Below are positions 4,933 to 10,932 of a DNA stretch of 64,000 nt, piece after piece (the stretch's first letter is position 1; the number at the start of each line of letters is the position of its first letter). The notes under the pieces were generated by a model, which saw nothing but the letters and a program-made list of their open reading frames with translations, searched no databases and was not told where the DNA came from. The translations under genes were made by a program, and so were the position numbers. The stretch comes from Aquisalimonas sp. 2447 (GTDB lineage Bacteria > Pseudomonadota > Gammaproteobacteria > Nitrococcales > Aquisalimonadaceae). Location: NCBI RefSeq assembly GCF_012044895.1, contig NZ_CP050695.1:3440501-3504500 (forward strand), written 5' to 3'.

Positions 4933-4946
4933 GGCTCTGGAATGAA

Positions 4947-9600: not shown

Positions 9601-9796
9601 GTCAGTTGCTCCTGTCTGATGGGGTGATCGTCGAGCGCAATCATACGATATGTCTACAAGACAAGCGCACGCCTCAGCGGTCAGTCACGCGCCTCGTCGT
9701 GCGACAGGGTCTCATGTGTCATCAGCGCACAGAAGGTTGAGCCACGTGGAACAGCCAAAAAACCGTAAGCCACTGTTTTTAATAAGTCTAAATTGT

Positions 9797-9812
9797 TGGC
9801 ATGGGGCCTGCA
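9797..9812 (+). promoter_or_regulatory. Sigma-54 promoter of Asp/Trp-rich gene copy 1
   Basis: TGGCATG (9797-9803), four bases, CTGCA (9808-9812): the invariant GG and GC dinucleotides have correct -24/-12 spacing. It lies 56 bases before ATG 9868. The same element occurs before copy 2 although the surrounding bases have diverged. Confidence 0.7.
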
Positions 9813-9867
9813 TTGGTCTGGGTGAGCCGAAAGGCGTTTTGTCACGCAAGCAATGAAGGAGGTCCTT

Positions 9868-10119
9868 ATGACCGCTCTCATCAAGCTCCGTACCCTGATG
9901 CTCACCCTGCTGGCCGCTCTTGGTCTGACCCTCGGCGGCATGGCCACTGCCACCGCCGACGCCGATCACAGCGGCGGCTCCGTCAGCGACGCCCCGGAAA
10001 CCGTCCAGTGGGACGACGATGATGATGACGATGATTGGGGCGACGACGATGATGACTGGGGTGAATGGGACGACGACGAAGATGACGAGTGGGAGGATGA
10101 CGACGACGCCGACTGGTAA
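9868..10119 (+). CDS. Small secreted Asp/Trp-rich protein, copy 1
   Basis: 83 residues from ATG 9868, preceded by AAGGAGG at ideal distance; a second ATG at 9853 overlaps this ribosome site and is unlikely. A signal peptide (IKLRTLMLTLLAALGL) ends near TATADA. The mature part, about 50 residues, begins DHSGGSVSDAPETVQW and then is almost only Asp, Glu, Trp and Gly, with repeats of the type DDDDDWGEWDDDEDDEW. Such a chain is extremely acidic and probably disordered without metal; calcium or other cation binding is a guess. The protein is identical to that at 10468. Each copy has its own sigma-54 promoter and terminator. No family recognised. Confidence 0.8.
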   Translation: MTALIKLRTLMLTLLAALGLTLGGMATATADADHSGGSVSDAPETVQWDDDDDDDDWGDDDDDWGEWDDDEDDEWEDDDDADW

Positions 10120-10149
10120 TTCGTCAGGTCTCACCAGCATCTGAAACTG

Positions 10150-10177
10150 AAGCGCCACCGGAGACGGTGGCGCTTTT
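10150..10177 (+). terminator. Terminator after Asp/Trp-rich gene copy 1
   Basis: AGCGCCACCG (10151-10160), loop GAGA, CGGTGGCGCT (10165-10174), then TTTT. A perfect ten-pair stem. Confidence 0.8.
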
Positions 10178-10396
10178 GATTGTTTTCACTGCATGCCACT
10201 TCGGCTGTTGAATGCCTGACGCATCCTCCTTCCAGTCTGACCGGCAGTCCGGGTGACATGACTGACTCCGCCTGGCCTCGAGCAATTCCAGGAGGGTCGT
10301 GCGCAGGGTCACATGTGCCGTCAGCGCACAGAGCCTGGAACCGCAGAGCGAACAAGATCGTGCTATAAGTTATTGTTTTTAAAATGTCCCAAATGT

Positions 10397-10412
10397 TGGC
10401 ACGCAGCCTGCA
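10397..10412 (+). promoter_or_regulatory. Sigma-54 promoter of Asp/Trp-rich gene copy 2
   Basis: TGGCACG (10397-10403), four bases (CAGC), CTGCA (10408-10412), one base off the consensus TGGCACG-N4-TTGCA. It is 56 bases before ATG 10468, the same spacing as in copy 1. I do not see a convincing enhancer palindrome upstream. Confidence 0.8.
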
Positions 10413-10467
10413 ACGATCTGGTTGAGCCGAAAGGTGTTTTCTCACACAAGCAGTGAAGGAGGTCCTT

Positions 10468-10719
10468 ATGACCGCTCTCATCAAGCTCCGTACCCTGATG
10501 CTCACCCTGCTGGCCGCTCTTGGTCTGACCCTCGGCGGCATGGCCACCGCCACCGCCGACGCCGATCACAGCGGCGGCTCCGTCAGCGACGCCCCGGAAA
10601 CCGTCCAGTGGGACGATGATGACGATGATGATGATTGGGGCGACGACGATGATGACTGGGGTGAATGGGACGACGATGAAGATGACGAGTGGGAGGATGA
10701 CGACGACGCCGACTGGTAA
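10468..10719 (+). CDS. Small secreted Asp/Trp-rich protein, copy 2
   Basis: Exactly 600 bases after copy 1, encoding the same 83 residues. The few nucleotide differences I can see in the coding part are synonymous (for example GAC/GAT exchanges in the Asp runs), while the upstream 150 bases differ at many places. AAGGAGG precedes ATG 10468. Signal peptide, acidic Asp/Trp tail and lack of known domains are as in copy 1. Recent duplication with conversion or strong purifying selection would explain the pattern. Confidence 0.8.
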   Translation: MTALIKLRTLMLTLLAALGLTLGGMATATADADHSGGSVSDAPETVQWDDDDDDDDWGDDDDDWGEWDDDEDDEWEDDDDADW

Positions 10720-10749: not shown

Positions 10750-10778
10750 AAGCGCCACCCTTTGCGGTGGCGCTTTTT
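10750..10778 (+). terminator. Terminator after Asp/Trp-rich gene copy 2
   Basis: AGCGCCACC (10751-10759) pairs with GGTGGCGCT (10766-10774), followed by TTTT. The stem is kept relative to copy 1 while the loop has changed, showing that the hairpin itself is maintained. Confidence 0.8.
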
Positions 10779-10813: not shown

Positions 10814-10932
10814 TGTGGGAGCGACGTCAGTCGCGACGGCCGAAGCCGCGTGCTCTGCAATGTCGCGACTCACGTCGCTCCCACGGGCTTTCCCGCTCGG
10901 CCGGTCACTGGAAACTCTAGATGCACCCTACG
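10814..10932. repeat. REP doublet (family C variant) plus partial family-B unit
   Basis: GTGGGAGCGACGTCAGTCGC within 10814-10837 and its near-inverse at 10862-10884 form a doublet with a short spacer. A half family-B unit (ATGCACCCTACG) is at 10921-10932. The array sits between the convergent Asp/Trp-rich gene and nadA. Confidence 0.75.

Follow-up and report, generated by a model that had tools for sequence, protein, structure and literature searches.

What are two identical, very small and strongly acidic proteins doing side by side in a bacterial chromosome, and what would switch them on? The question arises from the window analysed here, a stretch of 64,000 nucleotides from Aquisalimonas sp. 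2447, in which an original prediction made from the letters alone had pointed to a tandem pair of secreted Asp/Trp-rich proteins (DW proteins below) of no known family. We found that two plus-strand open reading frames, 9868-10119 and 10468-10719, do start 600 bp apart and encode the same 83-residue protein, and a Pfam search with that protein returned no family at E<=0.01. The two copies differ in five codons, all synonymously. The repeat reaches beyond the coding sequence (92% identity, 9766-10065 versus 10366-10665) and recurs further upstream (90% identity, 9705-9733 versus 10304-10332), and the promoter region is included in the duplication. Nothing about the neighbouring genes is unusual; they encode a cyclopropane-synthase-like methyltransferase and NadA.

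Judged by eye, the protein begins with a Sec signal peptide of residues ~1-30, with Lys/Arg, a hydrophobic stretch and Ala-x-Ala. The mature chain had been described as nearly only Asp, Glu, Trp and Gly. This is true of the tail from residue 29, where these four account for 41 of 55 residues (26 Asp, 5 Glu, 6 Trp and 4 Gly, hence 31 acidic) and where a run of 8 Asp occurs, but the first ~20 mature residues are of ordinary composition. An AlphaFold model from the single sequence contains one helix only, at residues 2-25, with low confidence (mean pLDDT 65.2, pTM 0.25), and the tail is probably disordered. Both reading frames look like real genes, and a chance origin is very unlikely because homologues exist. 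The features of the locus are as follows.

9713-9731, +: enhancer (UAS) of copy 1, CATGTGTCATCAGCGCACA, resembling GTGNCA-N3-TGNCAC and conserved upstream of relatives
9766-9778, +: IHF-like site of copy 1, TAAGCCACTGTTT, 2 mismatches, between enhancer and promoter
9797-9812, +: sigma-54 -24/-12 motif of copy 1, TGGCATGGGGCCTGCA, a sequence motif
9868-10119, +: DW gene copy 1, 83 aa, signal peptide and acidic/Trp tail, from the reading frame and its homologues
10149-10176, +: terminator-like hairpin after copy 1, weak evidence alone because the terminator scan found 1 where 0.9 were expected in shuffles
10312-10330, +: enhancer (UAS) of copy 2, CATGTGCCGTCAGCGCACA, a palindrome motif
10366-10378, +: IHF-like site of copy 2, TAAGTTATTGTTT, 1 mismatch, from the motif scan
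10397-10412, +: sigma-54 -24/-12 motif of copy 2, TGGCACGCAGCCTGCA, a sequence motif
10468-10719, +: DW gene copy 2, an open reading frame whose protein is identical to that of copy 1
10750-10775, +: self-complementary hairpin after copy 2, the counterpart of the copy 1 hairpin, seen in self-comparison and missed by the terminator scan

A REP-like palindromic repeat, GTGGGAGCGACNNNAGTCGCGAC, lies at 10815-10884 and also at 4946, 5078, 27684 and 55407 of the window (6 matches at <=3 mismatches, against 0.03 expected).

A search for relatives gave DW matches at E<=0.001 in 15 of 59 genomes, counting the genome of the window itself (G000, 3.97 Mb on one contig). They occur in 13 of the 14 genomes of its own family (the Aquisalimonas group) and elsewhere in the order in G020 (family f3) and G022 (family f5), weak and minus-strand cases having been read individually. 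When a 17-member profile was run against 369 genomes of the class, three genomes matched at E<=1e-6: that of the window itself and, from other families, G192 and G413. No DW gene was found in the congener G001, though it has kept the lipoprotein and DUF4168 sites described below, and no relative was found among plasmid records and viral contigs. Shared by the members are a signal-peptide core of the approximate form KLRxLLLTLLxALGL and a terminal Trp; the last residue of 24 distinct members is Trp in 22, Tyr in one and Lys in one (L035), a count that includes the window protein and L035 and takes the identical second window copy once. It leaves out a protein on contig G002:C346 (L039), a secreted, long His-Gly-Asp repeat protein that is cut by the contig end and matches the DW query weakly. 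Tail length and Trp spacing vary among members. A tiny secreted acidic/Trp pair outside Pfam, with homologues, stands as first described; of the tryptophan spacing that was expected to be kept, the terminal Trp is retained but the exact spacing is not. The DW effector family is new.

The main finding concerns control and goes beyond the original prediction; its evidence begins upstream of these genes. Both window copies and most relatives carry GG at -24 and GC at -12, 10 bases apart, in a TGGCAC-N5-TTGC context. An enhancer palindrome, GTGNCA-N3-TGNCAC, within CATGTG, lies ~75 bp upstream at the window copies; 20 sites fall into two groups by the distance from its centre to the -24 GG, 62.5-67.5 bp in 12 and 74.5-78.5 bp in 8, a difference of about one helical turn. 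The enhancer motif alone is not rare: chance would yield 0.89 matches across the window, and the own genome has 77 against 36 for a reversed control. Since it is too loose, we used a combined enhancer and promoter pattern for our claims, built from sites of the own family and allowing no mismatches. This pattern was observed in all 14 family genomes and in 15 of 54 genomes of the order, while the reversed control had no match in the same 54. IHF-like sites (<=1 mismatch) were present in 19 of 48 enhancer-promoter intervals, compared with 2.0 expected from shuffles that preserve base composition only; the 48 include class-wide matches, some of them probably accidental. Not every DW gene has the full arrangement. 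The G413 gene is without a recognisable enhancer or sigma-54 motif, those of G020 and G009 have sigma-54 motifs and no strict enhancer, the second copy in G004 has no motif of its own, and the -12 GC reads GA in the G192 promoter. Judged from these motifs, the DW genes very likely belong to a sigma-54 regulon.

Enhancer and sigma-54 motif were also seen together at sites of other kinds. At three loci of genus g2 (L079, G011:C50:31992-32300; L080, G005:C12 near 3837, minus strand; L078, G008:C162 near 3665, minus strand) a CU-rich stretch (CTCTCTCCTCCCTCC-like) comes next, together with a T-run hairpin, and no convincing reading frame was seen, which makes these sites a candidate sigma-54-dependent small RNA. 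At L063 (G003:C149:53595) they lie upstream of a gene that looks phasin-like, so in this one genome the regulon may reach to polyhydroxyalkanoate granules. In another family they precede a different small secreted protein (L265, G141:C9:6500), and a protein similar to it by eye is encoded divergently to the kinase in G192 (L296:5104-5577).

Which regulator would act at this enhancer? The own genome has 14 strong matches to sigma-54 activators. One of these, L050, is paired with a membrane histidine kinase at 3.547-3.550 Mb of G000, ~97 kb downstream of the DW genes, and an enhancer with a sigma-54 motif is located between the kinase gene and a divergent gene for a secreted protein whose sole Pfam match at E<=0.01 is PF13767 (DUF4168). 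The enhancer-promoter gap here is 110 bases, wider than at the DW genes, which is why the site fails the combined pattern. Relatives of the kinase were found in 24 of the 54 order genomes: 13 of the 15 that have the pattern (missed in 2) and 11 of the 39 that do not. Eighteen of the 24 loci could be parsed, and a looser enhancer-like motif occurred nearby in 14 of them, whereas simulated controls averaged 1.7 and never exceeded 5. A DUF4168-like reading frame was read as divergent from the kinase in 10 of the 18 (the Pfam test was made for the own genome only). The strongest independent support for the regulon, on sequence, is the arrangement in G192, where kinase, activator and DUF4168 genes form an operon with the enhancer before DUF4168, where a separate DW gene also has the enhancer, and where the activator is 59% identical to that of the own genome with a near-identical HTH. 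Close relatives of the activator locus, at 88-90% identity, are in A. lutea and two Aquisalimonas metagenome-assembled genomes.

Class-wide, the pattern with a wider gap matched in 11 of 369 genomes (own included) and the control in 6. There were 11 foreign sites: 4 before a DUF4168-like reading frame by eye (in G373, G192 and G388, and one of two in G179), 1 (G141) before the other small secreted protein, 2 before a PII-like gene and 4 without a plausible target. Outside the order the pattern is noisy; DUF4168 sites aside, stray matches are about as many as control matches.

Activators were compared between genomes over 9 of 10 matches in G010, 16 of 17 in G022, 11 of 12 in G008, 5 of 5 in G029, 10 of 10 in G019 and 4 of 4 in G018, with L046 and L056 of the own genome left out. 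L050 had counterparts in G010, G008 and G022 (64-72% identity), none close in G029 or G019, and one of 53% in G018, a genome without the pattern. Both L044 (CrbR-like, beside an acs-like gene, named by eye from its neighbours) and the NtrC-like L045 had counterparts in G010, G008 and G022 and also in the pattern-less G019, and either may still be the regulator. Among the curated activator models shown, none scored above its cut-off for the L050 activator. From the gene arrangement, we consider the L050 kinase and activator the likely regulator of the DW genes.

Two other candidates were set aside. In G007 an activator gene lies 1.4 kb from a DW gene, and its product has at most 42% identity to the own-genome activators compared (about half of the 14); by eye it adjoins pilus-like genes. 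The second was PrsR, which the own genome encodes (TIGR02915, 712.5 bits against a cut-off of 502.6). Excerpts of PMC9850573 describe sigma-54 control of exported proteins in the PrsK-PrsR/PEP-CTERM regulon, a likeness to the present case; the DW proteins differ in having, by inspection, no PEP-CTERM. PrsR was rejected because the genome-wide list of enhancer-pattern matches contains none from the 16-kb prs region (G000 3408000-3424000). That region (L104) contains the PrsR gene, presumably PrsK before it, and after it two proteins with PEP-CTERM-like ends by eye; one PEP-CTERM-type gene there has a sigma-54 motif only and no enhancer.

In layout the proposed circuit is like ZraPSR, a zinc-responsive envelope system in which a sigma-54 two-component pair is accompanied by a divergently encoded periplasmic accessory protein. 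As there, a kinase and a sigma-54 activator stand beside a divergent gene for a secreted, predicted-helical protein with its own sigma-54 motif. However, the activator scored 362.5 bits against a ZraR cut-off of 760 (NF007689), the accessory protein is DUF4168 (PF13767) rather than ZraP, and the further sites here belong to the DW genes and a lipoprotein. With two defining features absent on testing, the circuit appears to resemble ZraPSR in layout and is, by sequence, not ZraPSR. A model of the DUF4168 protein made from two sequences has four helices (mean pLDDT 81.8); its best Foldseek E was 2.0 and a second structural comparison gave Z <=5.5, with no ZraP-like entry among these weak matches. 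In the open-access library searched, DUF4168 was named in no paper, none mentioned both Aquisalimonas and rpoN, and none dealt with acidic secreted sigma-54-dependent proteins; PMC12239564 was the one paper found there that bears on the circuit, its domain or its genus.

In the own genome, the third pattern site stands before the gene of a 49-residue acidic lipoprotein ending in GGDDDW. In 10 of 10 genomes from genera g1-g3 such a lipoprotein gene lies upstream of a same-strand rloB, which an ATP-grasp gene follows; the lipoprotein-rloB gap is 163-330 bases as parsed in 9 genomes. These sites carry the enhancer (with one deviating base in G003) and the sigma-54 motif. In the own genome the rloB and ATP-grasp genes match PF14400, PF14402 and PF14397, RloB being an inactive transglutaminase fused to seven helices. 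Genus g4 has rloB and the ATP-grasp gene, with a lipoprotein or pattern site at rloB in 0 of 4 genomes, and in G022 the enhancer stands at the gene of a lipoprotein whose D/W tail ends in DY, on another contig than rloB. The rlo link, as read from these genomes, is not general and is limited to some genera. Across 11 lipoproteins the last residue is Trp in 6, Phe in 1, Tyr in 1, Gln in 2 and His in 1, and DDDW is a frequent ending. All 15 pattern genomes have PF14402, as do 11 of the 39 others, a tally that is not independent because the genomes are related.

The arrangement resembles RloABC of P. aeruginosa in that RloB (PF14400/PF14402) adjoins an ATP-grasp gene and a PF05618 protease with a signal peptide is encoded elsewhere in the genome, here at L189:6455-7054 with DTGA and a signal peptide by inspection. 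It departs from RloABC in g1-g3, where the lipoprotein gene with its sigma-54 motif and enhancer precedes rloB; in the pattern-less G020 and G025 an RloA-like reading frame, by eye, precedes it. The L189 homologue has an Asp/Glu-rich C-terminal tail and lies ~5 kb from the proposed activator. According to excerpts of PMC12239564, the Rlo pathway controls hypo-osmotic tolerance and biofilm formation in P. aeruginosa, and its physiological substrate is reported unknown. RloA is described there as a secreted retropepsin with a positively charged channel that cut reporters with 8 or 10 glutamates and not those with 6 or fewer, RloB as an inactive-transglutaminase membrane protein and RloC as an ATP-grasp protein predicted to be cytosolic. 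A triple mutant of RloA paralogues did not grow at low salt unless rloB or rloC was also deleted. No substrate encoded in the genome turned up in that study. The excerpts name no DW-like protein. In a Shewanella screen, as excerpted from PMC12096838, loss of an inactive transglutaminase and, separately, of RpoN was linked to vesicle overproduction.

Taking these observations together, we propose that the DW protein is a Sec-exported, probably disordered polyanion and one of the effectors that an envelope regulon under sigma-54 deploys. The membrane histidine kinase and its partner activator would act on the palindrome GTGNCA-N3-TGNCAC, probably aided by IHF bending, and the genes switched on would be those for the DW proteins, for the secreted DUF4168 protein and for the acidic lipoprotein that in ten genomes lies upstream of rloB-rloC. 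Under envelope or osmotic stress the tail would act by its charge, giving the periplasm a high density of fixed negative charge. Where the Rlo polyglutamate system shares the control, the tail would work beside it, and the terminal aromatic would be a docking element. We give this explanation as worded a probability of roughly 0.55. The genes, their homologues, the promoter motifs, the shared enhancer and its adjacency to kinase and activator genes are read directly from the sequences; what we infer from them is that this activator binds the enhancer, that the signal is stress, that the protein is exported and that it works by charge. The charge mechanism, taken as a specific claim, is tentative, and we hold it at somewhat worse than even odds.

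The alternative that fares best is that the DW proteins are ligands of the Rlo system, either as decoys in the positively charged channel of RloA or as acceptors or primers for a polyglutamate made by RloB/RloC. We consider this doubtful. It would account for the lipoprotein with the shared enhancer upstream of rloBC in all ten g1-g3 genomes, for PF14402 in every pattern genome (15/15, against 11/39 others, all related) and for the RloA homologue with an apparent signal peptide in the own genome. RloA needed at least 8 glutamates in its reporters (excerpts of PMC12239564), and the window tail has a run of 8 Asp. Some DW members, such as L022, are however without a run of 8 acidic residues, and genus g4 has no lipoprotein at rloB. 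The same excerpts also place RloC in the cytosol by prediction and state that a natural DDDDEEEDDD stretch was not cut.

Somewhat less probable again is a role apart from Rlo, in which the proteins would buffer cations or metals (Ca2+, Na+/H+ or a trivalent metal) in the periplasm of a haloalkaliphile. The original prediction had named a cation or metal buffer and a ligand for a cationic partner among its suggestions, and the observations are compatible with either. The 31 acidic residues among 55 in the tail and the occurrence of relatives of the regulator locus in Aquisalimonas would fit a buffering role. The genus is salt- and alkali-loving, and acidic wall polymers are a feature of alkaliphiles. 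Yet the members share no fixed spacing like that of a metal loop, buffering leaves the conserved terminal Trp unexplained, and an enhancer common to DUF4168 and the lipoprotein suggests an envelope response instead.

By analogy with the C-terminal tail of SSB, a precedent for an acidic docking peptide, the acidic run and terminal aromatic might together form a docking peptide for a basic partner, for example in feedback on the kinase or on DUF4168. Terminal aromatics in 23 of the 24 distinct DW members (22 Trp, one Tyr) and W, F or Y at the end of 8 of the 11 lipoproteins are in keeping with this, but L035 ends in Lys, three lipoproteins end in Gln or His, and there is no known partner. This reading seems quite improbable. 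Functionless drift of a low-complexity product, which the variable tail length and Trp spacing would allow, is the least credible account of all, given that the copies differ only synonymously (gene conversion could also explain this) and that several taxonomic families have kept the promoter motif, the enhancer and the signal peptide.

With the envelope-regulon explanation preferred, the finding links a strange low-complexity peptide with a control circuit that can be defined, which makes the function of the DW proteins testable. DUF4168 gains a candidate regulon defined by sequence, with an enhancer, an activator and targets, and candidate acidic proteins are offered for the Rlo pathway. In the boldest and still unlikely version, the DW proteins and the lipoproteins ending in DDDW would be genome-encoded partners of Rlo, polyanions that substitute for, prime or shield periplasmic polyglutamate under an undescribed sigma-54 envelope circuit of kinase, activator and DUF4168. 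If that partnership is true, the Rlo system, with its substrate reported unknown, would gain a natural partner among acidic proteins.
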